From a virus: DNA of 64,000 nucleotides. The DNA is taken from IMG/VR virus record IMGVR_UViG_3300009152_000003, positions 1-64,000 of that record. One strand, 5' to 3'. This document shows, one piece after another, positions 35,997 to 48,677 of the stretch; position 1 is the first letter of the stretch; every line of letters starts with the position of its first letter. The notes under the pieces are model-generated. The model ran no database searches. It saw nothing but the letters and a program-made list of their open reading frames with translations, and was not told the DNA's origin. A program made the position numbers and the translations under genes.

Positions 35997-36650
35997 CGGT
36001 GTTGTTTGCTAGGGCTTGCGGAGCGCTTGAGCGCGTCATTATGCGTTTTCGCACTACGATTCAAGGACCTGAAGCAAAAAAGGGCTCCTATAGGACCTTC
36101 AATTTTTTGTTGCGGCGCGCGACAGACATCAAAACCCACCCCAAGCGAGCAAGATTGCGGGAGGAAAAAAAAAGAGTGCAGTTGCGGCCAAGATGCTGGG
36201 CACGCATGCGTCCATTGCCTATTAATAGCAGGCACCAGCAGCAAGAGCAGGCGCCGTAGCAGCGCGCATGGCGCCTCAGCAGCAGCACACGCCATCCCCA
36301 CGCAGCTCGTGCTATCCACACGCCTCGTAGGCGCATGCACGCGCTACTCACGCGCTCGCTTACGCACACCGCAGCGCTGCAATCGCAGCCTGCGATCTCT
36401 CCTGCAGCTGCAACACACGCGTCTGCAACACACGCAGCGCCTGCAGCGCACACGCACACACACTCGCTACACATCACTTCCTATTCCTTCTACCCTCTTA
36501 CTCATTCTCTACCTATCTCAACGCCTCAAACCCCCTCCAACGCAGTCACTCTCCACTGCTTCCTTAATAGCTCACCTGCACACTCGCTACGCGGGAGCAC
36601 GCTCGCCACACACACTCCACGCACGCTGCGTAGGGGGCAGTAGTGGCATT
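35997..36650. other. Divergent noncoding region, possible origin/control region
   Basis: No convincing gene on either strand; open frames here have composition typical of chance. It contains direct repeats (TGCAACACACGC twice near 36417-36440; CACACTCGCTAC near 36460 and 36580), a CA/GC-alternating stretch (about 36440-36465), an almost pure pyrimidine stretch (about 36478-36540) and an A-run near 36164. It separates leftward virion from rightward early transcription, so it probably holds promoters; a replication origin is possible. Confidence 0.5.
36038..36064 (-). promoter_or_regulatory. Possible host-type promoter for leftward transcription
   Basis: Minus strand: TTGAAT, 15-nt spacer, CATAAT. 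The -10 has five of six sigma-70 consensus bases; the spacer is short. It would read leftward toward the 1115-aa gene with a leader of about 75 nt. Confidence 0.3.
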
Positions 36651-36653
36651 GGT

Positions 36654-36694
36654 GTGCTCACTCAGCAGTGCACGTGCCTGCTGTGCAGCATACA
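36654..36694 (+). repeat. Hairpin leader repeat, copy 1
   Basis: CTCAGCAG (36661-36668), loop TGCACGTGC, then CTGCTGTG. The CAGCAG/CTGCTG stem is fully Watson-Crick here where other copies have a G-U pair. An ATG follows 61 nt downstream of the left arm, opening a frame that joins the 48-aa gene. Confidence 0.7.
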
Positions 36695-36745
36695 CGCTCC
36701 AGCAACCACTTGGTTTCGCTTATGCGCAATCAAGGGGGTTCAAAT

Positions 36746-36783
36746 GAGCTCACTCAGCAGTGCACATGTTTGTTGAGCAGCTC
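36746..36783 (+). repeat. Hairpin leader repeat, copy 2
   Basis: GAGC...CTCAGCAG, loop TGCACATGT, TTGTTGAG...GCTC. The outer GAGC/GCTC pair extends the stem. Followed by GTCCTCTC and a small hairpin with a GCAA loop. The left arm is exactly 68 nt before the start of the 48-aa gene. Confidence 0.8.
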
Positions 36784-36820
36784 ATGTCCTCTCTTGGCCC
36801 AGCGCAAGCCGGCTTCGCTC

Positions 36821-36967
36821 ATGCTCCGCATCATTTCCTTCGCTCAAGACAACCCCAAGACTTACTTGGCCGGATGTCTTGCATTCGGGACCCTCCTCCG
36901 CCTGGCCATGTGCCACGGCAACTTGGATCTCTTCATGGATCCCCTCTATCCGCTCATCCACCGCTAG
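36821..36967 (+). CDS. Small protein with hydrophobic segment, 48 aa
   Basis: MLRIISFAQDNPKTYLAGCL followed by AFGTLLRLAMCHGNLDLF: a possible single membrane helix (about residues 14-30). Start chosen because the repeat-leader spacing to this ATG (68 nt) equals that of the next gene. It forms a self-contained unit: repeat leader, gene, hairpin, terminator. Function unknown; small early phage proteins of this type often act on the host. Confidence 0.55.
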   Translation: MLRIISFAQDNPKTYLAGCLAFGTLLRLAMCHGNLDLFMDPLYPLIHR

Positions 36968-36987
36968 TGCCACATCTGGCACCCCCG
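36965..36987 (+). repeat. Conserved 3' hairpin TAGTGCCA-CATC-TGGCACC, copy 1
   Basis: GTGCCA, loop CATC, TGGCAC, then CCCCG. The first three bases are the stop codon of the 48-aa gene. An identical 23-nt element occurs at 38144-38166 behind another small gene. Confidence 0.8.
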
Positions 36988-36992
36988 TCTCG

Positions 36993-37028
36993 CCCCTGGT
37001 CCCGCACACGCGGATCAGGGGCTTTTTC
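36993..37028 (+). terminator. Rho-independent terminator
   Basis: CCCCTGGTCCCGC, loop ACAC, GCGGATCAGGGG, then CTTTTT. A long stem with one bulge and one wobble pair. The next hairpin leader repeat begins four bases later, so the next gene must have its own promoter in or right beside the repeat. Confidence 0.85.
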
Positions 37029-37031
37029 AGT

Positions 37032-37069
37032 GAGCTCACTCAGCAGTGCACATGCCTGTTGAGCGGCTC
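37032..37069 (+). repeat. Hairpin leader repeat, copy 3
   Basis: GAGC...CTCAGCAG, loop TGCACATGC, CTGTTGAG..GGCTC. Directly behind a terminator. Followed by GACCTCTC and a CCCGG-TGAAAG-CCGGG hairpin. The left arm is 68 nt before the ATG of the 189-aa gene, the same as copy 2. Confidence 0.85.
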
Positions 37070-37106
37070 AGGGACCTCTCGCCCCGGTGAAAGCCGGGTT
37101 CCCTCA

Positions 37107-37676
37107 ATGGCTACCACTCAGACCAAGGCCGCTCTCGCCGAAGCCCTCGAGGCTGCCACCAGCCGCATCAGCGAACTGGAAGCCCTCATCGCTGCCGCCC
37201 AGAGCGAGCAGCAACAGCCAACCGCTGCCGCCCATCTGGATCAGGTCCTCTGGATCCAGCGCAAGCCGCTCGCGGAGCGCACACCTGACGGCAAAGGCAA
37301 CATTGGCTACACCCGCAGCGGAATGCTCACTGTGCGCTTCGCCGCGCAATACGCCTCCCTCGACAAACGGACAGGCACCCGCACCTTCGGCGTCTGGAAG
37401 TTCTTCACTTCCTACGGCGAAGTCGCCCAGCAGGTCATCGACCTGATGCGCACTGAAGACCGCCTCGTCCGAGTCCAGGCCTACGAAGAGCCCTGGTCCA
37501 GCGCTCAAGACCCCAACGCTCGCAACAGCGACTGGGTCGTACGAGGCTTCAACCCTATCGGCCGCGGCGCCGGCACTCCCCCGGAGCTGCCGCCCGTGCC
37601 CGCCAAAGCCGCCCCTGCTGCAGCACCCGCTGCCGCAGCGCCTGCCCAGCCCCAGCTGGCACCAGTCGCCTTCTGA
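37107..37676 (+). CDS. Possible OB-fold ssDNA-binding-like protein, 189 aa
   Basis: Residues 1-40 are an Ala/Glu helix (ALAEALEAATSRISELEALI). Residues 45-150 look like an OB-type domain: LWIQRKPLAE, SGMLTVRFAAQYASL, FGVWKFFTSYGEVAQQVIDL, RLVRVQAYEEPW. The last 35 residues are Ala/Pro-rich. This is similar in order to SSB-like proteins but lacks a clear acidic tip. Encoded as a single-gene unit between a repeat leader and its own terminator. No Shine-Dalgarno; the leader ends in GGTTCCCTCA. Confidence 0.5.
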   Translation: MATTQTKAALAEALEAATSRISELEALIAAAQSEQQQPTAAAHLDQVLWIQRKPLAERTPDGKGNIGYTRSGMLTVRFAAQYASLDKRTGTRTFGVWKFFTSYGEVAQQVIDLMRTEDRLVRVQAYEEPWSSAQDPNARNSDWVVRGFNPIGRGAGTPPELPPVPAKAAPAAAPAAAAPAQPQLAPVAF

Positions 37677-37683
37677 GGCACAC

Positions 37684-37724
37684 GCCCCCGGCTCCGCCAT
37701 CTGGCGGGGTTCGGGGGCTTTTTT
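37684..37724 (+). terminator. Rho-independent terminator
   Basis: GCCCCCG-G-CTCCGCC, loop ATCT, GGCGGGG-TT-CGGGGGC, followed by TTTTTT. Strong. Copy 4 of the leader repeat starts within a few bases of it. Confidence 0.9.
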
Positions 37725-37727
37725 ATT

Positions 37728-37766
37728 GGCCCCACTCAGCAGTGCACATGCCTGTTGAGCGGGCGC
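37728..37766 (+). repeat. Hairpin leader repeat, copy 4
   Basis: GGCCCC-A-CTCAGCAG, loop TGCACATGC, CTGTTGAG-C-GGGCGCC. The outer arms (GGC-CCC / GGG-CGCC) differ from copies 2 and 3 but still pair. Followed by GTCCTCTC and a hairpin CCCGGC-GAAA-GCCGGG (GNRA loop). 73 nt from left arm to ATG. Confidence 0.85.
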
Positions 37767-37806
37767 CTGTCCTCTCTCATCCCGGCGAAAGCCGGGGCGT
37801 TTTGTC

Positions 37807-38127
37807 ATGACCGAATCCCGGCTCTATGACCTCTCCCAGCAACTCCGCCTGCTGGCACGCCGTGACTGCCATCTCTCAGCCCATGGCAGCCTTCTCAACG
37901 GCTCCGTCGACCGCAAGGTCGAGGACGCCCGCGAGGAACTCCTCGTTGCCCTGGAACTCATCCAGGACCGCCAAGCTCTAGACGTCCAGCACCTGGACGC
38001 CATCGACTACTGCCAGGCCCTTGCCTGGCGCAACCGCCATCAGATCCAGGCACTCCGCCGCCAGTCGGAGTTCGAGCAACGCCTGGAAGCGCAAGCTCCA
38101 CGGCCACTCCGCCTCGAGGCCGCCTGA
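37807..38127 (+). CDS. Hypothetical helical protein, 106 aa
   Basis: MTESRLYDLSQQLRLLARRD, all-helical and charged, with a His/Cys-containing start and a Gln/Arg-rich second half (ALAWRNRHQIQALRRQSEFE). Single-gene unit behind repeat copy 4. No family recognised; small regulator possible. Confidence 0.55.
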   Translation: MTESRLYDLSQQLRLLARRDCHLSAHGSLLNGSVDRKVEDAREELLVALELIQDRQALDVQHLDAIDYCQALAWRNRHQIQALRRQSEFEQRLEAQAPRPLRLEAA

Positions 38128-38136
38128 CCCCCTCAT

Positions 38137-38168
38137 ACCGGGGTAGTGCCACATCTGGCACCCCCGGT
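38137..38168 (+). terminator. 3' hairpin with conserved TAGTGCCA element, copy 2
   Basis: ACCGGGG-TA-GTGCCA-CATC-TGGCAC-CCCCGGT: a 13-bp nested stem containing the same 23-nt element as 36965-36987. No strong T-run follows, so it may be an mRNA end stabiliser or a weak terminator rather than a classical one. Confidence 0.6.
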
Positions 38169-38247
38169 GTGCTTCATTACCGACCGCTCTAGCTGACAGT
38201 CCCTGCTACCCTCCCGCAATTCGCCCGGGCACTGCCCGGCTTACAAC

Positions 38248-38589
38248 ATGACACCCGCTTCCGCGGGGCGCCTCGCCGGCATTGCCTGGCGACACAGCGC
38301 CCCTGTCTTCTTCCTTGCCTGGGCTCTCGCCCGGGCACTCTTCGCCCTCTTCCTCCTGACCGGCGACGCCATTTGGCAGCGCCGTCAGAGCATCTTCCAG
38401 GGCATCCTGCACGCCCTGGTACACGCCTACGTGGCCGCTGAGGCCACCTACCACGCAGGCCGCCGCGTCAGGGCCCGCCTAGGCGCTCATGGCGCCCTCA
38501 GCGGTACCTCCGCTGCCCAGGCTCCCCAAGTCCTGCGCCTGGCGCTCCTGCGCTTCCTGGCGCGCCGCTACGGCTGGAGGCTGGCGTGA
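38248..38589 (+). CDS. Membrane-type small protein, 113 aa
   Basis: MTPASAGRLAGIAWRHSAPV then FFLAWALARALFALFLLTGD, one clear membrane helix (about residues 19-40). The rest is Arg/Ala-rich and helical. Overlaps the next gene start by 4 nt. No homologue recognised; an envelope-acting early protein is possible. Confidence 0.5.
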   Translation: MTPASAGRLAGIAWRHSAPVFFLAWALARALFALFLLTGDAIWQRRQSIFQGILHALVHAYVAAEATYHAGRRVRARLGAHGALSGTSAAQAPQVLRLALLRFLARRYGWRLA

Positions 38590-38780
38590 TCACCATCACC
38601 GCCCCCAACGGCCAACTGCTCGCCGACCAGCGCGGGCAGTTCTTTTACTCCCACAAGGGCCAGCTCGTCTCGGTTCCGCCGACCTCCTGTCGCTGGGACC
38701 TGGCCGACATGGCCCGCCTCTGGGGCGACATGTGCGCCGTCACTGGCAACCCATACGTCCTCTCCATCAGCCCTGGCTGA
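38586..38780 (+). CDS. Small hypothetical protein, 64 aa
   Basis: GTG start on the GTGA overlap. MITITAPNGQLLADQRGQFF, a small beta-type protein with a short C-terminal helix (DLADMARLWGDMCAVTGN). Family unknown. Confidence 0.5.
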   Translation: MITITAPNGQLLADQRGQFFYSHKGQLVSVPPTSCRWDLADMARLWGDMCAVTGNPYVLSISPG

Positions 38781-39282
38781 CACCTTCCCGTTGCCCCGTC
38801 TGACGCCTCCTACCCTTGGTGGCGTCATGAGACGGGGACTCGCTCTTGCTTGGCCTGCCCAGGCGAGAGCTTTCATCCTCCCCACCCCCATGGTCAAAAC
38901 CTTCTCCATCTTCATTTCCGGCGTCGTTGGCGTCGGCATGATTGCCGGCGCAATCGCCGACTACCGGGCCCTCCGTCTGGAGGCCCAGGCCGGGATCCCC
39001 GTCCCGGAATGCGCCAACATCAGCCTCCTTAGGCCCCCCTGCCGCTGACCTCTCGACCATCCATTGCAGCCGATCGCGGTCAATCAGCAGGTCGCCCCTG
39101 ACCCAGCTGATCACGCAGTTCGGTAACACCTGCTCCTCTGGCACCGGCGGCTGCCAGCTGTACCAGCTGTGCTTGCACCGGCGACACCTTCGCCAGCGAA
39201 TCCGACCGCCTTCTAGGTCGACCGCTGGACGACTGGTGACGCAACCAGCCAAGCCGTTGCACCGGGAGCACCTCACTGTCAC
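38767..39282 (-). CDS. Zinc-ribbon protein, NrdR-like N-terminus
   Basis: GTG start, MTVRCSRCNGLAGCVTSRPA. Cys5/Cys8 and the pair in RIRWRRCRRCKHSWYSWQP form a zinc ribbon like the other two in the window, with a following LLIDRDRLQWMVERSAAGG helix. From about residue 90 the frame is Gly/Asp/Glu-rich and antisense to a plus-strand small gene, so the true end may be earlier in evolution and the tail an extension. Minus strand within a plus-strand early region. Likely a DNA-binding regulator. Confidence 0.45.
   Translation of the reverse strand: MTVRCSRCNGLAGCVTSRPAVDLEGGRIRWRRCRRCKHSWYSWQPPVPEEQVLPNCVISWVRGDLLIDRDRLQWMVERSAAGGPKEADVGAFRDGDPGLGLQTEGPVVGDCAGNHADANDAGNEDGEGFDHGGGEDESSRLGRPSKSESPSHDATKGRRRQTGQREGVSQG
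38795..38838 (+). terminator. Hairpin, possible terminator
   Basis: CCCCGTCT-GACGCC...GGCGTC-ATG-AGACGGGG: two stacked stems of 8 and 6 bp. No T-run after it; behaves at most as a weak terminator or RNA stabiliser. Confidence 0.45.
38843..38871 (+). promoter_or_regulatory. Leader hairpin before 52-aa gene
   Basis: GCTCTTGCTTGG, loop CCTGC, CCAGGCGAGAGC: a 12-bp stem with two wobble pairs, 18 nt before the ATG at 38890. Sequence unrelated to the seven-copy repeat but placed the same way. Confidence 0.5.
38890..39048 (+). CDS. Small membrane protein, 52 aa
   Basis: MVKTFSIFISGVVGVGMIAG: an N-terminal hydrophobic helix (residues 4-22) with a short basic start, so either a membrane anchor or uncleaved signal. 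Then a polar tail with two Cys. Family unknown. Overlaps the antisense zinc-ribbon tail. Confidence 0.45.
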   Translation: MVKTFSIFISGVVGVGMIAGAIADYRALRLEAQAGIPVPECANISLLRPPCR

Positions 39283-39330
39283 GCTGCCTGACTGCCATAG
39301 CGGTCAGACAGTTTACCCCCCTCTCGCCTC

Positions 39331-39549
39331 ATGATTCTCGAAATCTTTTGCGGCCACGAGGCCTATGGCCCCGCCATGGGCAGCGCCAGATACCTCAGGC
39401 GCCTTGCCAGGGCCTTCCAGCGCGTTCACCCGCACGCTCGCGTTGTCCTCTCCCCAGAGGACGGCTACAGGCCCGCCCAGCTGGCCCTCTTGGCCGCCAT
39501 CGCCGATCAAGGCGAGCGCGACATGCGCGAGCTCATGGAGGCCCCATGA
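39331..39549 (+). CDS. Small hypothetical protein, 72 aa
   Basis: MILEIFCGHEAYGPAMGSAR, helical Arg/Ala-rich. First gene of a run of overlapping small genes (39.3-41.5 kb). The leader is pyrimidine-rich (CCCCCCTCTCGCCTC) with no SD. Family unknown. Confidence 0.55.
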   Translation: MILEIFCGHEAYGPAMGSARYLRRLARAFQRVHPHARVVLSPEDGYRPAQLALLAAIADQGERDMRELMEAP

Positions 39550-39878
39550 CCACACAATCACTCTCCCTCCGCCTGGCGGACGACCTCGCCGCCAATCCCC
39601 TGACCTGGCCGGGGCTCTACCCCCGCTACGGCGTCACCAACGACGGTCAAGCGCTCTGCCCCGACTGCTGCCGGACGGAGCGCAAGTGGATCGCCACCAC
39701 CACCGGCTCTGACGGCTGGTGCCTCATCGACGTCTCCGTCGACTGGGGCGATAGCGACATCAGCTGCAGCCATTGCAGCAAGCCAATCCTCGAGGCCTGC
39801 CTTGAGGAACCCCAGGTCGGCACCGACGCGCCCACCGTTGAAGAACGCAACTCCCTCACCCTCGCCTACGCCCAATGA
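39546..39878 (+). CDS. Small protein with two Cys pairs, 110 aa
   Basis: Start MTTQSLSLRLADDLAANPLT on the ATGA overlap. Cys pairs CPDCCRTERKW and CSHCSKPI suggest one zinc ribbon (ligands about residues 37/40 and 77/80). The family is common in phage early regions but I cannot name it. Ends with TVEERNSLTLAYAQ. Confidence 0.55.
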   Translation: MTTQSLSLRLADDLAANPLTWPGLYPRYGVTNDGQALCPDCCRTERKWIATTTGSDGWCLIDVSVDWGDSDISCSHCSKPILEACLEEPQVGTDAPTVEERNSLTLAYAQ

Positions 39879-40288
39879 ACCCTGCCATCAAGACCCAATG
39901 GGTCGCCGCCCTTCGCTCCGGTGAATACCAGCAAGGCAGAAACTTCCTTCGCACCGACGAGGGCTTCTGCTGCCTAGGGGTCCTCTGTGACCTGGCCGCC
40001 AAGGCCGGCATCGGTGTGTACTGGAGCAAGCCCGCCGCAGCACCCACTCTCGACGGCCGCGTCTACGACGACGTTCAAGCCTGCTGCGACTCAACTGGAA
40101 TCCTGCCTGCGGCCGTCATGTGCTGGGCTGATCTCGACACGGACTCTCCCGAGGTAACCGCTGTCAATGGCCTAAACATTGACGTGACCACCGACGGCGA
40201 TTCCAACGTAATCCCGCTGGCACGCCTCAACGACACGCATCTGTTTGATTTTTCCATCATCGCTGACCTCATTGAGGCTCAATTGTGA
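39875..40288 (+). CDS. Conserved phage protein, 137 aa
   Basis: MNPAIKTQWVAALRSGEYQQ GRNFLR, then FCCLGVLCDLAAKAGIGVYW. This N-terminal pattern (K-x-x-W-V-x-A-L-R-S-G-x-Y-x-Q-G...CCLGVLCDLA) recurs in many phages and prophages; its function is not known to me. Coupled by 4-nt overlaps on both sides. Confidence 0.7.
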   Translation: MNPAIKTQWVAALRSGEYQQGRNFLRTDEGFCCLGVLCDLAAKAGIGVYWSKPAAAPTLDGRVYDDVQACCDSTGILPAAVMCWADLDTDSPEVTAVNGLNIDVTTDGDSNVIPLARLNDTHLFDFSIIADLIEAQL

Positions 40289-40560
40289 AGCAGATCTCCT
40301 ACACCGAACTTGCGTCTCACTTCCACCCCGAAGTGCACGACAGCCTCAAGCGCGTCGCCTGCCACCCAGGCGCTACGCACCTGGTCTTGTTCCAGAACCA
40401 GGCTCTTGATTCATCTGCCCACGGCCTCTGCTCTGCGTTGGCTGTGGGCCCCGGCTGCACCCGCGCCTCCCTCGAGGAGGCGTATGCCGGCCACCTGAAT
40501 GACCTGCCGTCCCAGCGGCAATATCCCATCGCCCATTGCGAGCTGCCCCATGCCGCATGA
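40285..40560 (+). CDS. Hypothetical protein, 91 aa
   Basis: GTG start on the GTGA overlap. MKQISYTELASHFHPEVHDS, mixed alpha/beta, His-rich near its start, ends QRQYPIAHCELPHAA. No family recognised. Confidence 0.55.
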   Translation: MKQISYTELASHFHPEVHDSLKRVACHPGATHLVLFQNQALDSSAHGLCSALAVGPGCTRASLEEAYAGHLNDLPSQRQYPIAHCELPHAA

Positions 40561-40855
40561 CCCCCTCTGGTCCGGCTGGTTCGATGGCCGCACGGCCATT
40601 CGTGACCTGCTGGCTGACTGTATCAAAGACTGCTCGGCTCGCGAAAGCGACGTCAGCGAAGCTGTTGACCACTGGGTCAAGAAGCTCCAGCTCGAGGCCC
40701 CACCCTGGCTGCTGCGCGAGCACCTCCGCGGCACCGGGGGCTACGAGCCCTGGCAGCTCTGCGATCACCAGGCGAACCTGCGTCGCCTGCTCTTTTCCTG
40801 GGCCTGCGACTGCCGCGAGAGCGGTCTCAACCTTCCCATCTATCTCGCTCGATGA
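40550..40855 (+). CDS. Hypothetical helical protein, 101 aa
   Basis: MPHDPLWSGWFDGRTAIRDL LADCIKDC... helical, with WVKKLQLEAPPWLLREHLRG. Overlaps the previous stop by 11 nt. No family recognised. Confidence 0.55.
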   Translation: MPHDPLWSGWFDGRTAIRDLLADCIKDCSARESDVSEAVDHWVKKLQLEAPPWLLREHLRGTGGYEPWQLCDHQANLRRLLFSWACDCRESGLNLPIYLAR

Positions 40856-41046
40856 CGGCCCGCTCTGCGCCTTTCCTCTGCACCAGCATCTTCACCTGCG
40901 GTGTCTGCCTGGCGGATCTCGTCGACCGCAACACCGCGGACCACTCCTTCTACCCCCAGGCCTGGATCCCTGGGCCCCACCCATCCCCTGCGGCGGTTGA
41001 GCTCCACGAGCTCCGCCGCTGGCAGACGCTTGCTAGCACACCATGA
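40852..41046 (+). CDS. Small Cys-containing protein, 64 aa
   Basis: MTARSAPFLCTSIFTCGVCL, with C-x5-C-x2-C near the start, possibly metal-binding, then a Pro/His-rich middle. Coupled by ATGA overlap on both sides. Family unknown. Confidence 0.5.
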   Translation: MTARSAPFLCTSIFTCGVCLADLVDRNTADHSFYPQAWIPGPHPSPAAVELHELRRWQTLASTP

Positions 41047-41252
41047 ACTCCCCACTGCCGCGAGAGCGGCCTCAGCCTCTCACTCTCAAGGTAGAAGCCA
41101 CCGGCGCCACCGACGACGACTTGCTCATCGCTCTCGACGAAGTCAAGCGCCTCATCTCTGAAGGCTTCAGCTCAGGCTTCGGCTCCAACGAGAGCGGCTC
41201 TTTCAGCTTCGAATACAGCGACACCGCCTGGAGACAAACCAATGAATCTTGA
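41043..41252 (+). CDS. Small acidic hypothetical protein, 69 aa
   Basis: MNSPLPRERPQPLTLKVEAT, then ATDDDLLIALDEVKRLISEG and a Ser/Gly/Phe-rich end (FGSNESGSFSFEYSD). The style recalls small phage proteins ending in a G-x-N-x-S-G-S-F-x-F strand. Function unknown. Confidence 0.55.
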   Translation: MNSPLPRERPQPLTLKVEATGATDDDLLIALDEVKRLISEGFSSGFGSNESGSFSFEYSDTAWRQTNES

Positions 41253-41454
41253 CTTCGACGCCGACCTCGGCGCCCCCGGGGCTCCGGCGTCCCGGCGCTT
41301 CGTGTTCATCACTCGAACAATCGGCCCCTCTGGCGGCCACGCCCTTGACGCTATTGCCGACGACGGCACTGCCTGGTACGCCGTGCTGCAGCGTGGCGCC
41401 GGCCTCAGCGTCTCGTCCTGGCAGCCGCACCCGCCTCTGCCGCCGATCAACTGA
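41242..41454 (+). CDS. Small hypothetical protein, 70 aa
   Basis: MNLDFDADLGAPGAPASRRF, then beta-type RFVFITRTIGPSG and ADDGTAWYAVLQRGAGL. Overlaps the previous gene by 11 nt. Last gene of this overlapping run. Confidence 0.55.
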   Translation: MNLDFDADLGAPGAPASRRFVFITRTIGPSGGHALDAIADDGTAWYAVLQRGAGLSVSSWQPHPPLPPIN

Positions 41455-41668
41455 ACACCGGCTCGGCCACGCCTAATGACCGGGGGACAGCTTCCTCTTG
41501 GATGTCCGCCACCCGGCCAGCGCGGGCGCGCATCAGTTCTCTAACGCGCTCGCCCTCGGCGTTCCAGCCCATCGCAGGCAGCGCAAGGCCTCTCACTAGG
41601 GCCTCTTGCCATAGAGCTGCCTCGATCAACCCAGCCAGATCAATCTGGTCCCCCGCAAACCTCTCCAC
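41447..41668 (-). CDS. Small hypothetical protein, 73 aa
   Basis: GTG start one base after the upstream stop. MERFAGDQIDLAGLIEAALW, helical with GERVRELMRARAGRVAD. Transcribed with the 163-aa gene from a late-type box, so it belongs to the virion-type genes. Confidence 0.5.
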   Translation of the reverse strand: MERFAGDQIDLAGLIEAALWQEALVRGLALPAMGWNAEGERVRELMRARAGRVADIQEEAVPRSLGVAEPVFS

Positions 41669-41669
41669 A

Positions 41670-42161
41670 TCAGGCGAGCGGGCTGTTCTCTGTCCTCTCG
41701 CCTGTCGTCGAGCCCTCCTGCAAGAACCCCATCAACTGCAACAACTGCTGGGCGGGCGCTGTCAACAGCGCACCGCCACCCACGATCGCCGTCGGCAACA
41801 CGCCGCGACGGACGTAATCGTTCGTTGCGATCCCTTCGTTGATCATCTCCATCGTGCCGCGACCTGTCCAACCACCCTGCCCGCGACGCATGTCGGGGGC
41901 GTACTGGCTGGCAATCCTGGCGCGGCCCTTTTGATTGCCCAGGGCGCTCTCGATCCCCGCAACGGCATCAGCCGCCGGAGGAGCGAAGCCCCTGGTAATC
42001 CGCTCCATGATCTGCGAGCGGTACTTCCCTTCGGTATCGCCCTGGATCATCGCGGTGTTCCGCGCAATCCCAGCAGCCCTGTCCCCTGCTTGGCGCTTGG
42101 CTGCCTCCTCGGCAATCCAGGCGTCAAGCCCAGCAAGCTTGCCCTGAATCTGACCCCACAT
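41670..42161 (-). CDS. Virion-type hypothetical protein, 163 aa
   Basis: Start MWGQIQGKLAGLDAWIAEEA. Helical and charged, with a hydrophobic Gly/Ala segment (VRRGVLPTAIVGGGALLTAP) near residue 135. Its TAGAAT box (22 nt upstream), strand and make-up resemble the ejection-cluster genes, yet it sits alone in the early region: probably a displaced late gene. Confidence 0.55.
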   Translation of the reverse strand: MWGQIQGKLAGLDAWIAEEAAKRQAGDRAAGIARNTAMIQGDTEGKYRSQIMERITRGFAPPAADAVAGIESALGNQKGRARIASQYAPDMRRGQGGWTGRGTMEMINEGIATNDYVRRGVLPTAIVGGGALLTAPAQQLLQLMGFLQEGSTTGERTENSPLA

Positions 42162-42182
42162 GGATAGCACCTCGGATCGTTC

Positions 42183-42190
42183 GATTCTAG
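42183..42190 (-). promoter_or_regulatory. Late promoter-like box CTAGAATC
   Basis: CTAGAATC on the minus strand, 22 nt before the 163-aa gene. Its presence in the early region exactly before the only virion-type gene there supports the motif's meaning. Divergent from repeat copy 5. Confidence 0.6.
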
Positions 42191-42202
42191 GTGGATCTTT
42201 GT

Positions 42203-42238
42203 GGGTCCACTCAGCAGTGCACATGCCTGTTGAGCCCC
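42203..42238 (+). repeat. Hairpin leader repeat, copy 5
   Basis: GGG-TCCA-CTCAGCAG, loop TGCACATGC, CTGTTGAG-CCCC. Outer GGG/CCC arms pair although they differ from copies 2-4. The left arm is 55 nt before the ATG at 42265. Confidence 0.85.
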
Positions 42239-42264
42239 TTTATCTCTCTGTTTGGAACAAGACC

Positions 42265-42666
42265 ATGCCCATCATCGCTTTTGGCCCCTTCGAAATCCGC
42301 CTCAACTCCGGCACCACCGGCGTCAACTGGACCGACACGGAGCTTGCCTTCGTGACCGGTCGTAACGGCGCCGGCTTCGCGACACGAGAAACCGCACTTC
42401 GCGCCGGCTTCAAGTCCGAGCACCTGCTCGAGCTCGCCGGTGAGGACGACACCAACGACACCAAGGTCGTCAACGGTGCCACCTACCACGGCAAGCGCAG
42501 CACTGGCTTCGACGGCAAGGACTACGTCCTCTCTGCTGAGCAAATCGCCGCACGCGCCGAGTACCGCAAAGCCATGCGCGAAAGCCAAAACCAGGCCAAA
42601 CGCGCCGCCGAGTTCGCCGCAGGCAGCGACCCCTCGATCACCGTCGAGGCCGCACCTGCGGGCTGA
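42265..42666 (+). CDS. Hypothetical protein, 133 aa
   Basis: MPIIAFGPFEIRLNSGTTGV NWT..., a beta-type N-terminus, then a helical charged C-terminus (AARAEYRKAMRESQNQAKRA). Single-gene unit between repeat copy 5 and a terminator. Family unknown. Confidence 0.6.
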   Translation: MPIIAFGPFEIRLNSGTTGVNWTDTELAFVTGRNGAGFATRETALRAGFKSEHLLELAGEDDTNDTKVVNGATYHGKRSTGFDGKDYVLSAEQIAARAEYRKAMRESQNQAKRAAEFAAGSDPSITVEAAPAG

Positions 42667-42690
42667 TCCCTCAGGCCCTGCCACAATCAC

Positions 42691-42727
42691 AGCCTCGGCG
42701 TGCGTCCTGCATGCCGAGGCTTCTTTG
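42691..42727 (+). terminator. Rho-independent terminator
   Basis: AGCCTCGGCGTG, loop CGTCCTG, CATGCCGAGGCT, then TCTTTGT: a 12-bp stem with one wobble pair. Ends the 133-aa gene unit. Confidence 0.8.
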
Positions 42728-42744
42728 TGACAACAGTGACCGCC

Positions 42745-42942
42745 ATGGCAAGCTATCGCACCAATGCCGTGCTACACGTCCATCGCCTGCGTGACTGGTC
42801 TGCCATCTTGCTTCGTCAAGCAAGGGCCAGTTTCGACGCCGGCGATGGCAGTCAGACGGCCGAGTCCGTCGCTGCCATCCGCGACCTCCACCGCTCGTTC
42901 CAGCAACGAGCCCAGCAAATCGACCAAACCCTTTCCCTATGA
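42745..42942 (+). CDS. Small helical protein, 65 aa
   Basis: MASYRTNAVLHVHRLRDWSA, all-helical, basic. Overlaps the Gp157-like gene by 4 nt, so likely works with it or is merely co-expressed. Family unknown. Confidence 0.55.
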   Translation: MASYRTNAVLHVHRLRDWSAILLRQARASFDAGDGSQTAESVAAIRDLHRSFQQRAQQIDQTLSL

Positions 42943-43634
42943 CCATCGCCCCCTCTAAACCCAAAACCCCTTCCCTCTTCCAGATCACCCTGGAAAGCCA
43001 GGAGATCGACGGCGAGCTTTCGATCGCCCTAGCCAAGGCCAGCTCCGAGGACCCCGAGGAGCAAGCCGAAGCCGAGGCTCTGATCACCAGCCTGCTCGAG
43101 CGGGCCAATGACAGCCAGCGCATGCTGCTTCGCAAGGCCAACGGCATCTGCCAGATCCGCGAGATGCTGCTCGGTAAGGCCGAGTTCCTCCGCAAGGGCG
43201 CAGCCGAGCGCATCGCCAAAGCCGAGGCCGAGGAACGCGCCGCCCAGCGCCTGGAGGACTACCTCCTGCGCTGCCTGCAAGCCCTCCACCCCGGACAAAC
43301 GAAGTTCGAACTGCCCGAGTTCACCATTGTTTCGCGTCCAAGCGAAGCCGTCGAAGTCGACACCAGCCTCGACGCTCCAGACATGCCCGAAGAGTTCACC
43401 CGAGTTGAACTCAAGCTCAAGCTTTCAGGCCACGGCAGCACCAGGGCCTGCGACATCGAGCGCCTACTGCGTGGACACCTTGAAGACATGCTCGATGGCT
43501 GCCCTCCCGGCACCTACGAGCTGGCCGAGCCCAAGGCTGCGCCCGACAAGACGGCCATCAAGGCCGCCATCAAGGAGGGCGCCACCGTCCCCGGCGCACA
43601 ACTGGTCAAGCGCCGCTCCTGGTCCATCAAGTGA
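42939..43634 (+). CDS. Siphovirus Gp157-like protein
   Basis: A 231-aa protein. Long coiled-coil (residues 35-110: EEQAEAEALITSLLERANDS, AERIAKAEAEERAAQRLEDY LL), then the family-like beta end: HPGQTKFELPEFTIVSRPSE, AVEVDTSLDAPDMPEEFTRV and a C-terminal DKTAIKAAIKEGATVPGAQL. This K-x-x-I-K-x-A-[IL]-K-x-G...V-x-G-A-x-L ending is characteristic of Sipho_Gp157, proteins linked with replication/recombination and phage resistance. About 50 residues sit between the FTIV strand and the ending, slightly longer than usual. Confidence 0.75.
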   Translation: MTIAPSKPKTPSLFQITLESQEIDGELSIALAKASSEDPEEQAEAEALITSLLERANDSQRMLLRKANGICQIREMLLGKAEFLRKGAAERIAKAEAEERAAQRLEDYLLRCLQALHPGQTKFELPEFTIVSRPSEAVEVDTSLDAPDMPEEFTRVELKLKLSGHGSTRACDIERLLRGHLEDMLDGCPPGTYELAEPKAAPDKTAIKAAIKEGATVPGAQLVKRRSWSIK

Positions 43635-44278
43635 CCGTCAAGTTCCCAATCAAGTTCCCATCAGGCGTCTGCCAAGCATCACCAGGCGCCCAGCAAGTAC
43701 CCATCAAGTACTTGCTTTCTCGATACCTGCCAAGTATTCGTTTTCCGGGTACTCGCTTCCCCCGGCCCGACTTCCTGCGCGTGACCACGCCGTCGGGCCG
43801 GTTCCTGGTCACACCCAACAGCGGCAGAGCACGGCTGGCCCTCAACCAGCTGTGCGATCCCTCCCTGCCGCGTCTCGGTGACGCTCTGCTGCTCTCCCCT
43901 GAGCAGGCAGCTGGCGTCACCGCCTACCTCCAGTCCCTCTCCTTCTCTGTAAAGCCATGGCAGTCCATACCATCACCTCGGCCCCCAGGCCCAGCTTCAG
44001 GCACAACGGTTACCACTTTGCCTACTACGACCGCGTTGCCCCCACCGGCAAGCAATGCGTGGTTGCCTTCCCAACCAGTCTCGCTGACACCATCAAGCCT
44101 GGCTTTCAGTTCGACGAAGCCACCAGTGTCCACTGGGACGACGCTCTCAAGGCGTCTGTCCTCCACTTGGACTTCGATGAGCGCGAAAGCCTGGCTGAGC
44201 CTTCGCTCCCTCCTGACCCTGAGTCCGGGTGGGGCGACATTGACTATCCCGCTCCCTCCCCTGCCGAAGTCGAGCTGA
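43631..44278 (+). CDS. Hypothetical protein with 3' out-of-frame extension, 215 aa
   Basis: GTG start on the GTGA overlap. The first 110 residues look genuine: FRVTTPSGRFLVTPNSGRAR-like strand and LLLSPEQAAGVTAYLQSL helix. The N-terminus has repeats at DNA level (AAGTTCCCA, AAGTACCCATCAAGTA). Residues beyond about 110 overlap the next gene for 322 nt in another frame and look like shadow sequence. An ancestral stop has probably been lost. Confidence 0.45.
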   Translation: MTVKFPIKFPSGVCQASPGAQQVPIKYLLSRYLPSIRFPGTRFPRPDFLRVTTPSGRFLVTPNSGRARLALNQLCDPSLPRLGDALLLSPEQAAGVTAYLQSLSFSVKPWQSIPSPRPPGPASGTTVTTLPTTTALPPPASNAWLPSQPVSLTPSSLAFSSTKPPVSTGTTLSRRLSSTWTSMSAKAWLSLRSLLTLSPGGATLTIPLPPLPKSS

Positions 44279-44586
44279 CTTCCGGCAACAACCACGCAAC
44301 ACCTGCCGCCAATAGCCAGCCAGCCATGCGCGGCCCGGCTCACCGCAAATCGGAAGCTCAGAAGGCTATCGAGCAGGGGGCTCAGCTGCCCGCGGCCTAC
44401 CTCAAGATCAACTTGGAGGTCAGTCGCTCCTTCCTGCTCCAGCTGCGCCTGATTGGCAACGCCGTTGGCGAACACAATCGCGCAATGATTGCTCAGAAGC
44501 TCTGCGCTATTTCGTCCATTCCCTACTACAAACAAATCGGCGTCAACCTCACAGAAGAAGACGTCAACAGCATGACTGCCCTCTGA
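43957..44586 (+). CDS. Hypothetical protein, 209 aa
   Basis: MAVHTITSAPRPSFRHNGYH FAYYDR, a mixed N-terminus, a disordered middle and a helical C-terminus (AAYLKINLEVSRSFLLQLRL IGNAVGEHN, then LCAISSIPYYKQIGVNLTEE). Starts within the previous gene. No family recognised. Confidence 0.55.
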   Translation: MAVHTITSAPRPSFRHNGYHFAYYDRVAPTGKQCVVAFPTSLADTIKPGFQFDEATSVHWDDALKASVLHLDFDERESLAEPSLPPDPESGWGDIDYPAPSPAEVELTSGNNHATPAANSQPAMRGPAHRKSEAQKAIEQGAQLPAAYLKINLEVSRSFLLQLRLIGNAVGEHNRAMIAQKLCAISSIPYYKQIGVNLTEEDVNSMTAL

Positions 44587-44612
44587 TACCGGCGAATGAG
44601 TGCGTTCTTGTG

Positions 44613-44634
44613 GGTGCACTCAGCAGTGCACATT
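44613..44634 (+). repeat. Hairpin leader repeat, copy 6 (right arm lost)
   Basis: CACTCAGCAGTGCACAT is kept, but the CTGTTGAG arm is absent. Instead the flank makes GTGCAC-TCAGCA-GTGCAC, a perfect 6-bp hairpin. The left arm is 36 nt before the ATG at 44655, the shortest spacing. Confidence 0.7.
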
Positions 44635-44654
44635 CCTTGTTCCTTGTTTTCGCT

Positions 44655-45251
44655 ATGGAAGCTCTCCTTGCTCCGCAAGACACCGCTCTTGCTCCTCTCC
44701 CCTCGTGGGCTGTTCCGGCCACGCCCGAGCGCAACTACACCACCGTCGGCATCTCTGCTGACGGCCTCCTCTACATCTACGGCGACAGCGCCTCATCGCC
44801 AGGTCCCATCCTGCCCAGCGTGCTTGGCGTCGTCGTCGACATCCAAATCAGCCAACACGGCGGTGCCAGCCGCTACGGAGTCCGAGACTACCTGGACCTC
44901 CACCTGGGCACCGCCATCCCTGGTGAGTTCGTCGTGCTGCGCTTGCCCTGTCAGGCAAAGCCGCACCTCGATACCAGCGAGCTACAGACCCCGTGGTCCG
45001 TACGCTCCCTCGTTGGCGCTCTCCTCCTGCTTGACTTGCAGGAGACAGCGATCAAACTGCAAACCAAGCGCGGGAACACCACCACGTTCTTCCGCGTCTT
45101 CCCCCACTCCGCCGAGGGGATCGAGCAACCCGAAGTCCGGGCCGAATCCATCGGACCGGCACAGGGCGACCTCGAGATCGCTGTTAACCGACTGCGCAGC
45201 CAGCTCGGTCTCCCTCCTCAATTCACCGAGCCCTTCGTTGATGTCACCTGA
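44655..45251 (+). CDS. Hypothetical protein, 198 aa
   Basis: MEALLAPQDTALAPLPSWAV, beta-rich (GLLYIYGDSASSPGPILPSV LGVVVDIQI), with GEFVVLRLPCQAKPHLDT and a C-terminal helix. Behind repeat copy 6 with the leader TTCCTTGTTTTCGCT. Overlaps the next gene by 11 nt. No motif recognised. Confidence 0.55.
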   Translation: MEALLAPQDTALAPLPSWAVPATPERNYTTVGISADGLLYIYGDSASSPGPILPSVLGVVVDIQISQHGGASRYGVRDYLDLHLGTAIPGEFVVLRLPCQAKPHLDTSELQTPWSVRSLVGALLLLDLQETAIKLQTKRGNTTTFFRVFPHSAEGIEQPEVRAESIGPAQGDLEIAVNRLRSQLGLPPQFTEPFVDVT

Positions 45252-45765
45252 CCCATCTGTACCGGACCAGATCTCCCAGGAATCCCTGCAACAGTTCCTG
45301 CTCAACGCCTCATCAGCAGGTGCCAGGGATCTGCCAATCGGAACCAAAGTTCCTCGGCTGCCGCTTAGCGACCCTGACTTTGGGGCCGCCGACTTGGTCG
45401 TCGCCTTGGAACAGCTCCTGGCAGCGGCGGGTGGAGCCAACTCGCTTCACCTCATGCACGCCAGCAGCTTCCTGCTGAGCGTTGTCGTCGCCGCTATGGA
45501 GCGACGCCTCGAAGATCCGGAGATTGCCGAAATCGGCGGGCTGGCCGGACTCGTCTTTCTGGCCACAACTCGAACGCTGATCAGGGGCATCGTCACCTGC
45601 ATCGGTCAGATCGATGACTTCATCGGTCCCCTCACCGTTGTCCACGCCGAGAGCATCGGCGGCGGCCCTGGCAGCCGCAAGGGGCTCGTCAGTGACGGCA
45701 CCCTTTCCGCCCTGGGTCTCGACATCGAGGACTACGACCGCGAGTTCAAGCGGCGCGTCCCCTGA
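45241..45765 (+). CDS. Hypothetical protein, 174 aa
   Basis: MSPDPSVPDQISQESLQQFL, helical; moderately hydrophobic helices ASSFLLSVVVAAMERRLEDP and GGLAGLVFLATTRTLIRGIV could pack in a bundle rather than a membrane. Translationally coupled to the 198-aa gene. Family unknown. Confidence 0.55.
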   Translation: MSPDPSVPDQISQESLQQFLLNASSAGARDLPIGTKVPRLPLSDPDFGAADLVVALEQLLAAAGGANSLHLMHASSFLLSVVVAAMERRLEDPEIAEIGGLAGLVFLATTRTLIRGIVTCIGQIDDFIGPLTVVHAESIGGGPGSRKGLVSDGTLSALGLDIEDYDREFKRRVP

Positions 45766-45807
45766 CCTTCCCCACTCGCACCTCTCTCTTCATCCCCTTC
45801 TCACCCC

Positions 45808-46890
45808 ATGTCAAGCGAGTTCACTTCAGGCGTCTTTGCTTTCGGCACCAAAGCCTGGCACAACGAAGGCGATGTCATCGAAGGCACCCTGCCGGCTGAC
45901 GAGATGTTCCGCCGCGCCCAGGCCCTCTTCCCCGTCGAGACGCTCCAGCTCCACGCCGGCGACATTGACAGCCCTGCCCTGCACGACGCCATCGCCCGCG
46001 CTGCCGATCAGTCCTTCAGCTCACCAGAAGAGCGCGGCATCGCCATCCACCAGGCACTTCAGCAGCACCTGGTCTCGCTCAGGGAAAACCGTGTCGGCAT
46101 CTGGCGCCCCGACGAACGCAAGATTCTCGGCACCGCCAGCCCTGGCTACCGCGTCATCCCCAACGTCCGACTCCTCGACTTCGCCCAGGCCATCCGCGAA
46201 GAAACCGACATGGACGCCTGCGTCGTCCTGCGCAACGGCGCCAAGGTCGCCTTCACGGCCAAGATTCGGGGCACCGACCAGCAGGTCGTGCCCGGCGACA
46301 AGGTGTACCGCAACATCGTGGGCTACCTCGGTCATGACGGCTCGACCGCGTTTGGCGGCATGTTCTCAGACATCCGCGTTGTCTGCCGCAACACCCTTGG
46401 CTTTGCGATGAGCGATGCCAACCGCCACGGGCGGCAGTTCACTATCCGCCACACCGACAACGACGTCGCCCAGATCGACAACGTGCTTCAGAACATCGAC
46501 ATCGCCCGCCAGACCTTCGCTGCCGTCCTTGACGACTACCGCAGCATGCAGGCCACGCCGATGGGCCTCGACCTCTACCGCCACTGGCTGGAGCAGGTCT
46601 ACCAAGTCCCCGACGTCAAGCTCGTCGGCGGCGACACTCGCCCGGGCCGCATCGACGACATGCCCCGCAAGTGGGCGCAGCTTGAGCGTGCCTGGAACTA
46701 CGGCCTCGGCCGTGACATCCCCGGTGTTTCCGGCACCGTCTACGCCGGCCTCAACGCCGTCACCGAAGTCGAGACTTCGATGCTGACTGCCGGTGCCGGC
46801 AAGCGCCGCCTGCACTCGACCCTGTTCGGCACCGGTGCTGGCGTCATCCGCCGCGCCAACGAACTGGCGCGTGATCTGGTGACTGCCTGA
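45808..46890 (+). CDS. DUF932 phage/plasmid-like protein
   Basis: A 360-aa protein with the DUF932 (phage/plasmid-like, TIGR03299) layout: GTKAWHNEGDVIEGTLPADE near the start, DERKILGTASPGYRVIPNVR (R/K-x-L-G-x-V-x-x-x-Y near residue 105), then AFTAKIRGTDQQVVPGDKVY, GGMFSDIRVVCRNTLGFAMS and MLTAGAGKRRLHSTLFGTGA at the end. Family function is unknown; it is frequent in phages and conjugative plasmids. Leader is purely pyrimidine-rich with no SD. Ended by a terminator. Confidence 0.8.
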   Translation: MSSEFTSGVFAFGTKAWHNEGDVIEGTLPADEMFRRAQALFPVETLQLHAGDIDSPALHDAIARAADQSFSSPEERGIAIHQALQQHLVSLRENRVGIWRPDERKILGTASPGYRVIPNVRLLDFAQAIREETDMDACVVLRNGAKVAFTAKIRGTDQQVVPGDKVYRNIVGYLGHDGSTAFGGMFSDIRVVCRNTLGFAMSDANRHGRQFTIRHTDNDVAQIDNVLQNIDIARQTFAAVLDDYRSMQATPMGLDLYRHWLEQVYQVPDVKLVGGDTRPGRIDDMPRKWAQLERAWNYGLGRDIPGVSGTVYAGLNAVTEVETSMLTAGAGKRRLHSTLFGTGAGVIRRANELARDLVTA

Positions 46891-46901
46891 TCGATCTTCC
46901 T

Positions 46902-46930
46902 GCCCCTGCTGTTTGCGGGGGCTTCCTCTC
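46902..46930 (+). terminator. Rho-independent terminator
   Basis: GCCCCTGC, loop TGTTT, GCGGGGGC, then TTCCTCTCTTTC. An 8-bp stem with one wobble and a U/C-rich tail, after the DUF932 gene. Confidence 0.6.
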
Positions 46931-46949
46931 TTTCCTCTCACCTCACTCC

Positions 46950-48296
46950 ATGGCCAAATTCCAACTGACCATCAGCTCCGACTACGTCAGCGACTGGAGC
47001 GCCTACGAAGGCGTCCGTGAATCCATCCAGAACGCCCTGGATGGCAAGGATGCCGGCCATCCCATGCACATCCGTCATAACGGTGACACCCTCAACATCG
47101 CCAACTTCGGCGTGCGCCTCGACCGCTCGGTCTGGCTGATGGGCAGCACATCCAAAGCTGAGACCGACGCCCGCGGCCACTTCGGCGAAGGGCTCAAACT
47201 CGGCGCCCTGGCTCTGGTCCGTGCCGGCCGCAAGCTCCGCATCGTCAACGATGACGAGGACTGGCTCTGCACCCTTGAGGACTCCAAGGCCTTCCCGGGC
47301 CAGCAGGTCCTGACTGTCACCACCCGCAAGCGCCCCACCCCGCTGGGTGCCTTCTCGGTTCAGGTCCTCTGTTCCGAGGAGGAATGGAGCGAGTGGCAGG
47401 ACTCCTTCATTGACCTCAAGCCCAAGGCTCTGAAGTCGATCCCCGCCGGCGGCGTCCAGATCCTCACCGATCCCGTCGAGCGTGGCCGCTGCTATGTCAA
47501 AGGCATCTTTGTCGAATACAAGCCGGATCTTTACGCTGGCTACAACTTCAACCGCGACGTTCGCACCGACCGCGATCGCCGGGTGATGAACAGCTTCGAC
47601 TTCGACTACCACGCCGGCAACGCCTGGATCGGCGCCCTCACCGACGGAGAGATCACTCCCACCGACATGCTGGCCATGCTGCAATCAGCAGCGCCAGATG
47701 CTAAGGCAACCGGCAACCGCTATTGCCCCGCTTCTGGTATCGAAGCCGTCGGCACTGCCTGGACTTCCATCCATGGCGCCTCTGCTATGCCTGTTCTTGA
47801 TCAAGCCGGCGCCATCGAAGCTGGTCACTATGGCCGGATCGGCATCATCGCCAGCCCTGCGACCTGCACCTTCCTCGATGACCACCCGACATTGAGCCTC
47901 AAGTCCCTGCGGGTGGCGAAGCGCAACGACGTCACGGCCACCTACGGCCTGGGCGATCTCACCTATTCCGAGCGTTTCATCTACCAGTCCGCCATCGAAG
48001 CCATCACCCCGACGCTTAACTCCATGGGCATCACGCCCATCGCGCCTCGTCTCGGCCTCGTCGACTTTCAGTGTGACGACGTCCTTGGCCTGCACCGCTT
48101 CAACCGAGAAGAATCCGTGCACCAGATCCTGGTGGCACGGCGCACCCTCAAGTCCCTGCCCTCCTTCCTGCAGGTGCTCGTCCACGAGATTGCTCACGAC
48201 TTCGGCGGCGACGGCGAAGTCAGTCACGAGCGCGCCGAAGGCGAGATCTTCTCCAAGGTCATCAGCCGACTGCTCGATGCCGCCCTGGTCGCATGA
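46950..48296 (+). CDS. GHKL-type ATPase fused to HExxH metallopeptidase-like domain
   Basis: A 448-aa protein. N-terminus has the GHKL layout: N-box AYEGVRESIQNALDG (Glu24, Asn28), a glycine-poor G1 (LNIANFGVRLD, residues 48-58) and G2 GHFGEGLKLGALALVRAG (77-94). The C-terminus holds VLVHEIAHDFGGDGEVSHER: HEIAH (412-416) is a zincin zinc site, with His426 or a following Glu as possible third ligand. The middle (200-380) is unassigned. Could be an ATP-gated protease or a cut-down GHKL switch against host defence. Upstream leader is CT-rich with no SD. Confidence 0.65.
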   Translation: MAKFQLTISSDYVSDWSAYEGVRESIQNALDGKDAGHPMHIRHNGDTLNIANFGVRLDRSVWLMGSTSKAETDARGHFGEGLKLGALALVRAGRKLRIVNDDEDWLCTLEDSKAFPGQQVLTVTTRKRPTPLGAFSVQVLCSEEEWSEWQDSFIDLKPKALKSIPAGGVQILTDPVERGRCYVKGIFVEYKPDLYAGYNFNRDVRTDRDRRVMNSFDFDYHAGNAWIGALTDGEITPTDMLAMLQSAAPDAKATGNRYCPASGIEAVGTAWTSIHGASAMPVLDQAGAIEAGHYGRIGIIASPATCTFLDDHPTLSLKSLRVAKRNDVTATYGLGDLTYSERFIYQSAIEAITPTLNSMGITPIAPRLGLVDFQCDDVLGLHRFNREESVHQILVARRTLKSLPSFLQVLVHEIAHDFGGDGEVSHERAEGEIFSKVISRLLDAALVA

Positions 48297-48592
48297 CCGA
48301 CGGCGCCATGCGACAAGTCGGGACGCCCTGTCCCGACTGCGGCTCGATCGAGCGCGGTGTCATCGAGTCGCGGCCCCGCAGTGGCGGCTCGATCTACCGC
48401 CGCTGCTTTTGCCGCCGGTGCGGTACTCGCTACACCACTCGGGAACAACTGGTCGGCGAGGCAGCCACCAAGACGCCCGACGACAGCCGCGCCGAACGGC
48501 TCAGACGCGCGGCAATGATCGATCAGATCGATCGCATCGAGCGCAGCCTTGCCGTCCTCAGGAAGAACGTGCCTCCTGTCAATTTGACCTGA
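48293..48592 (+). CDS. NrdR-like zinc-ribbon protein, 99 aa
   Basis: Starts on the ATGA overlap with the GHKL gene. MTDGAMRQVGTPCPDCGSIE, then GSIYRRCFCRRCGTRYTTRE: C-P-D-C-G-S and C-x-x-C-G-x-R-Y-T-T-R-E are the NrdR zinc-ribbon signature. No ATP-cone; a C-terminal helix (MIDQIDRIERSLAVLRKN) could dimerise. Probably a transcription factor. Coupling with the GHKL-zincin gene suggests the pair acts together. Confidence 0.65.
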   Translation: MTDGAMRQVGTPCPDCGSIERGVIESRPRSGGSIYRRCFCRRCGTRYTTREQLVGEAATKTPDDSRAERLRRAAMIDQIDRIERSLAVLRKNVPPVNLT

Positions 48593-48601
48593 TCTTTGTA
48601 G

Positions 48602-48641
48602 CCCCACTCAGCAGTGCACAGATCTGTGTTGCTGGCTGGGG
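48602..48641 (+). repeat. Hairpin leader repeat, copy 7
   Basis: CCCCA-CTCAGCAGTG-CACAGATCTGTG-TTGCTGGC-TGGGG. The conserved left arm is kept, while the right half differs from other copies, yet a longer hairpin (CCCCA/TGGGG, CAGCA/TGCTG, CACAGA/TCTGTG) still forms. Followed by GTCCTCTTTG. 71 nt from left arm to the ACG at 48678. Confidence 0.8.
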
Positions 48642-48677
48642 TTGCTTGTCCTCTTTGTTTCCTAGCTCCCTCCTTCC

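Follow-up and report, generated by a model that had tools for sequence, protein, structure and literature searches.

Seven copies of a short repeat stand before small genes of a viral genome, and the locus raises the question of whether they act as RNA leaders, as promoters or as sites bound by a regulator. The virus record has 83,980 bases (~84 kb), of which the first 64,000 form the window, the whole stretch of DNA that was analysed. Among deposited phages its large terminase is best matched by that of Synechococcus phage S-EIV1 (51% identity), whose counterpart of the 737-aa virion protein is likewise the nearest (43% identity). On these two similarities the record is taken as that of a putative freshwater cyanobacterial virus related to S-EIV1. 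No nucleotide-level relatives of the record were found among deposited phages and plasmids, and most of its relatives are metagenomic fragments. The S-EIV1-like lineage is reported to be widespread in the title of Chenard et al. 2015 (cited in PMC8790148). In the literature, nothing was found that describes gene control in this lineage, nor any description of the repeated site.

The virion genes occupy the minus strand left of 36 kb. To the right, the plus strand carries small ORFs and replication/recombination genes (exonuclease, SSB and a VapE-type primase/helicase, the last one beyond the window). The genes behind the repeats are called early from their position and type, an attribution that is presumptive. 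Note that the first gene of the leftward operon (32610-35957, minus strand) is the record's largest ORF; it codes a 1115-aa protein without PHROG or Pfam match that is barely conserved even among close relatives.

The seven copies and their genes

The original prediction of seven repeat copies holds: all are present, on the plus strand, between 36,653 and 48,645, and the 84-kb record has no further ones. Their coordinates had been placed 5-7 nt too low. The core CACTCAGCAGTGCACA has six exact matches in the 84-kb record and a seventh with a single mismatch, and none in the backward reading, with no copies expected by chance against the seven observed. CTCAGCAG starts at 36661, 36753, 37039, 37735, 42210, 44619 and 48607. 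The predicted short distance to a start codon stood for copies 2-6 (68, 68, 72, 55 and 36 nt, respectively).

Copy 1 (36653-36692), composed of TG, the core (36662-36674, one mismatch) and the right arm, has no clear gene ahead of copy 2. Copies 2 (36745-36784), 3 (37031-37070), 4 (37727-37766) and 5 (42202-42241) precede the ORFs 36821-36967 (48 aa), 37107-37676, 37807-38127 and 42265-42666, respectively. Copy 6 (44611-44650), followed by ORF 44655-45251, features an alternative stem GTGCACT/AGTGCAC at 44614-44631; this pairing (GTGCACTCAGCAGTGCAC), already noticed in the prediction, is present and retained in relatives. In copy 7 (48599-48645) TA replaces TG and the stem is shifted (CCCCA/TGGGG). 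The frame behind it, which runs to 49229, opens on ACG at 48678, whereas ATG is read in the relative G004; the start may have changed, the start codon may be an unusual one, or the sequence may contain an error. No clear Shine-Dalgarno sequence was found for any of these genes.

Intrinsic-terminator-like hairpins followed by a T run, as read from the sequence, lie on the plus strand directly upstream of copies 3 (36993-37027) and 4 (37684-37725). A second leader hairpin of the same strand is located between copy 3 and its ATG (CCCGGT-GAAA-GCCGGG, 37083-37098) and between copy 4 and its ATG (CCCGGC-GAAA-GCCGGG, 37780-37797). Such GC-rich hairpins with a GAAA loop are found in the element-to-ATG gap of some copies, and their stem sequence changes in relatives. 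Copy 5 is adjoined by a divergent conserved gene of unknown function (41670-42161, minus strand), whose putative -10-like box TAGAAT (42184-42189, minus strand) is conserved.

Across the arrays the unit is a site, a small ORF and a terminator, repeated 7-13 times on one strand. The TG has a terminator ending no more than 14 nt before it in 30/66, 35/44 and 24/31 copies, as compared to 2-5% of random places. The first copy of each array is preceded by a long non-coding stretch without a terminator. This repetition on one strand points to small units that would be started separately and be governed by one switch. Note that conserved blocks are found 5' of the first copy in the window (~36500-36650, CACGCACGCAGCG-like in the window clade) and in clade B (TGTTAA...GGTACACGC; G034:64460-64530, G035:14290-14359, G029:30550-30617). 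They are perhaps origin, packaging or promoter sequences.

No -35/-10 boxes were found in or beside the copies. Close upstream of the first copies there is no good match to a sigma70 promoter, the best weak ones being more than 70 nt off, and the sole match to a sigma70-like consensus in the window between 36 and 49.5 kb is on the opposite strand. A sigma70 -10 box within the T-run was considered and dropped, the T-run being the preceding gene's terminator, which is missing at first copies. The structured promoter that had been proposed may still apply, despite this lack of boxes.

A constant site and a variable hairpin

The window clade, aligned in a core-anchored profile, comprises nine contigs with 24 nonredundant copies. 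TG is found at -9/-8 in 96% of them, TCAGCAGTGCACA is nearly invariant and the right arm is loosely conserved, with no sequence conservation at -45 to -23 or past +30. The spacing between TG and core is fixed in these copies and in all clades. The invariant part is the bipartite TG-N8-CARCAGTGCA, of fixed spacing and on a single strand, in 7-13 copies per genome.

A covariance model of the window-type hairpin had firm matches in the window clade only; a terminase scan led to more distant relatives in which the site has drifted. The GC-rich records G034, G035, G043, G029, G031 and G028 carry TG-N7-(T/A)CAGCAGTGCAT or close variants. The AT-rich records G032, G033 and G030 carry TG-N7-TCAACAGTGCATT, with 12 copies in G033 and 13 in G030. 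In these marine relatives the ATG lies 0-8 nt after the core in most copies and the hairpin is almost absent. The comparison of GC-rich and AT-rich records thus shows that it is the sequence, and not the hairpin, that stays constant. The G041 group has a changed site, TG-N7-TCATCAGTAC, and several of its copies carry the matching left half TGTAC; ~12 copies of this switched site are found in a sister lineage (L225; G041:47747-59850, minus strand), which is without the XRE-like gene described below. The pattern thresholds in these searches were set by the authors, and pattern matches in unrelated contigs were put down to chance. Scanning the species-genome collection for DUF932 and for the terminase yielded no host copy, retrieving only two phage-like contigs (metagenome bin).

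The original prediction that the outer flanks of the hairpin covary is borne out by two tests. Alignment A3, whose 17 window-type copies were picked for good pairing, contains 10 double-change cells where shuffles give 3.9 +/- 1.6, and 0/500 shuffles reach that number. The test relied on is free of such selection: left and right flanks were exchanged between copies, which were then folded. In the window clade (35 copies) the native pairs are far more stable, with z of about -7 (-6 to -8). For 45 nonredundant copies of several clades z is -11 (0/5000). Copies within a lineage are kin, so that the permutation p-values overstate independence. By clade, z is -7.0 in the window clade, -8.0 in B, -3.6 in G028 and -2.35 in the AT-rich clade. 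Covariation thus persisted when homologues were added, the hairpin surviving in the GC-rich clades; the structure is weak in roughly a third of the window-clade copies.

The outcome of the flank swap is unchanged for sense folds, antisense folds and folds without G-U pairs, and energies therefore cannot separate an RNA from a DNA structure. The mismatches inside the stem favour a structure of the sense strand, G.T exceeding A.C by 19 to 2 (15/19 G.T fall at two core positions). The stem ends at TG, complementarity beyond it being that of chance (0.52, 0.29 and 0.24 versus 0.46, 0.38 and 0.36 expected). In the 64 kb no Rfam family matched at the gathering threshold, and the region gave only a chance miRNA match (E = 5). 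The idea of a structured RNA leader is accordingly upheld in part: flank pairing in GC-rich clades speaks for it, but it cannot be the whole function because TG-N8-CARCAGTGCA persists in AT-rich relatives that have lost the hairpin.

Two other identities of the site were rejected. The CTCARC/GTTGAG arms in the window resemble the R boxes of an integron attC-like site, but the site precedes an ATG and its right arm is missing in AT-rich relatives. Mimicry of 16S rRNA (CAGCAGTGG) was discarded since the match disappears where the core has become CAACAGTGCA.

Different repeats were seen in other contigs. Viral contigs bearing DUF932 (L066, L067, L070-L075; e.g., L066:9215, 9614, 11071 and 11815) have a repeated leader made of a sigma70-like -10 (TATTGT/TATTAT), ACGAGGC-GNRA-GCCTC with a varying loop (GCGA, GAGA or GCAA) and a CU-rich stretch, followed by ATG. 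A relative of the window's terminase is not detectable in these contigs. Near-exact tandem repeats with ~170 bp spacing at G002:86891-88097 and G006:29836-31042 probably sit in a tail-fibre gene.

A candidate regulator and the readings weighed

Conservation is mirrored within the site (n = 120) at T-9/A10 (0.91), G-8/C9 (0.96) and C-5/G6 (0.82), as compared to only 0.30-0.38 at the other mirror positions tested (-7, -6 and -4). The dyad is imperfect, its right half being far better conserved than the left. Mirrored half-sites at a fixed spacing are what the operator of a dimer would look like. A candidate for its ligand is a 214-aa XRE-like HTH protein coded just outside the window (record 64616-65260), divergently from the primase/helicase. 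Its predicted structure is of medium confidence (pLDDT 73, pTM 0.42). The amino terminus domain matches XRE/lambda-repressor-like folds in Foldseek with probability 1.0, these matches being weak (E 0.02-0.3), and the protein weakly matches transcriptional regulators of PHROGs.

A profile search found the protein in the window clade, G034, G030 and G033 and not in G041, G011 and S-EIV1, which lack the canonical site. Co-occurrence was counted in records of at least 50 kb, to which a primase scan added, two or more canonical copies defining a site-positive record. The HTH gene is present in 13/13 site-positive records and missing in 8/9 site-negative ones (Fisher p = 2.8e-5 before allowing for kinship). 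The ninth, G061, has the gene, but this record probably ends short of the site region. Several changes of state of the gene are seen on the primase tree: its absences fall in at least three separate groups, one sister to a gene-bearing record, and a few isolated absences are due to loci truncated beside the primase. The co-occurrence is partial. G056 lacks the gene, yet has two weaker copies, and on this record a perfect link was dropped; G041 lacks it and yet keeps the drifted site. With such exceptions beside few independent events, the link between gene and site is suggestive and not exclusive.

The reading preferred, tentatively, places a phage operator/promoter site across the 5' end of every early unit, the leader hairpin being an addition of the GC-rich members. 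Each copy would control, from its 5' end, a small unit of site, ORF and terminator. The constant part of the site would be the dyad TGnnC-N10-GTGCA, whose right half is lengthened to CARCAGTGCA. A phage-encoded regulator, for which the XRE-like HTH protein is the best candidate, would bind the site in its double-stranded DNA form, either covering the transcription start or immediately at it. Binding, with a sign of regulation that is conjectural, would switch 7-13 small genes over ~12 kb together. In GC-rich members the flanks would have evolved to pair, giving a hairpin with TG as its 5' boundary. Located at or near the mRNA 5' end, it would probably be secondary and serve stability or insulation from upstream read-through. 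The operator reading is silent on why the GC-rich flanks pair so strongly, and the lack of promoter hexamers on which a repressor could act counts against it. Confidence is further tempered by a tension over the start. Transcription from TG would fit the hairpin boundary and leave no room for an ordinary promoter behind the terminator; if it began near the core, this would suit an operator and leave half of the hairpin outside the RNA.

If, instead, the transcript starts at about TG and folds into a 5'-terminal hairpin, a cis-acting RNA leader could be the main function, presenting or burying the core and so controlling mRNA stability or translation. The strongly selected flank pairing, the stem that stops where complementarity falls to chance, the G.T excess (with its concentration at two core positions) and the invariable sense orientation agree with such a leader. 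It is made somewhat unlikely by the AT-rich relatives, which retain the sequence but hardly the hairpin, and by the T-run of the preceding terminator at -16 to -12, which leaves no room for an ordinary promoter starting at TG. A start inside or just after the core would be explained by a non-canonical promoter used by a phage-modified host polymerase or by an unrecognised phage polymerase or sigma-like factor. The monocistronic layout behind terminators, the lack of a sigma70-like promoter on the site strand between 36 and 49.5 kb or near first copies, and a core-to-ATG distance of at least 11 nt in the AT-rich clade are in line with this explanation. It is judged quite unlikely: PF00940, a model that is not specific for the N4 virion RNA polymerase, detected the T7 RNA polymerase in the T7 control and nothing in these records, and none of the conserved large proteins resembles a polymerase. 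Least probable of all is a processive antitermination or mRNA-processing element acting on read-through transcripts (put/nut-like, or an RNase site between two hairpins). It would suit such an element that the site, with its U-rich linker, follows a terminator hairpin and precedes the next gene. One antitermination site per operon is normally enough, but 7-13 occur here, each lying past the terminator that it would need to suppress, and the first copies have no terminator upstream.

A related claim, considered unlikely, is that of a hybrid control site with an invariant DNA recognition sequence common to the entire cyanophage lineage, no -35/-10 boxes and a covarying hairpin added only in GC-rich members, its start coinciding exactly with the recognition sequence. 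If true, the site would represent a class of phage promoters/operators that acquires and sheds its RNA or strand structure along with genome composition, and that changed its specificity in a single lineage alongside loss of the regulator gene. The signature TG-N8-CARCAGTGCA after a terminator is searchable; it would mark a co-regulated gene set and points to a candidate regulator. The same site with the hairpin (GC-rich) and without it (AT-rich), plus one lineage with a switched site, offers a natural experiment.

Comparison with known systems

The site is not assigned to the ESAS, T4 PeSL or N4-type elements. The promoter early stem-loops (PeSL) of T4-type phages are intergenic stem-loops with an embedded early promoter that are mobile between intergenic sites. 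The element studied here is also an intergenic stem-loop beside early-gene starts and terminators, but no sigma70 early promoter was found in it, and the parallel drawn in the original prediction stands as a concept only. The hairpin promoters of the N4 virion RNA polymerase have stems that may vary provided that pairing holds. The copies resemble them as promoter-like sites with variable but paired stems. They differ in that AT-rich relatives are largely without the hairpin, that the stem is large and irregular and that the mismatch pattern points to the sense rather than the template strand; a giant virion polymerase was not seen, the largest ORF having 1115 aa and being barely conserved. 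The stoperators of cluster A mycobacteriophages are short sites of one orientation scattered among genes. The present sites share these traits, but have a dyad-like form, lie at gene starts and, in some clades, fold into hairpins.

Of the elements described so far, the SAS/ESAS of cluster K mycobacteriophages come closest: repeated, start-associated inverted repeats whose consensus varies by subcluster (PMC3203893, PMC11373665); stoperators are also mentioned in the first of these papers (PMC3203893). ESAS contain SigA-like promoters with -35/-10 boxes (PMC11373665), whereas no sigma70/SigA-like -35/-10 is found near the copies here. Left/right departures in SAS/ESAS repeats do not support RNA pairing according to their authors (PMC3203893), in contrast to the flanks that covary here in GC-rich clades. 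Their consensus is GGGATAGGAGCCC with 17-bp inverted repeats, as compared to TG-N8-CARCAGTGCA, and sequence, host and phage lineage differ. Both systems combine a conserved core with an imperfect inverted repeat, in many same-strand copies just upstream of gene starts.
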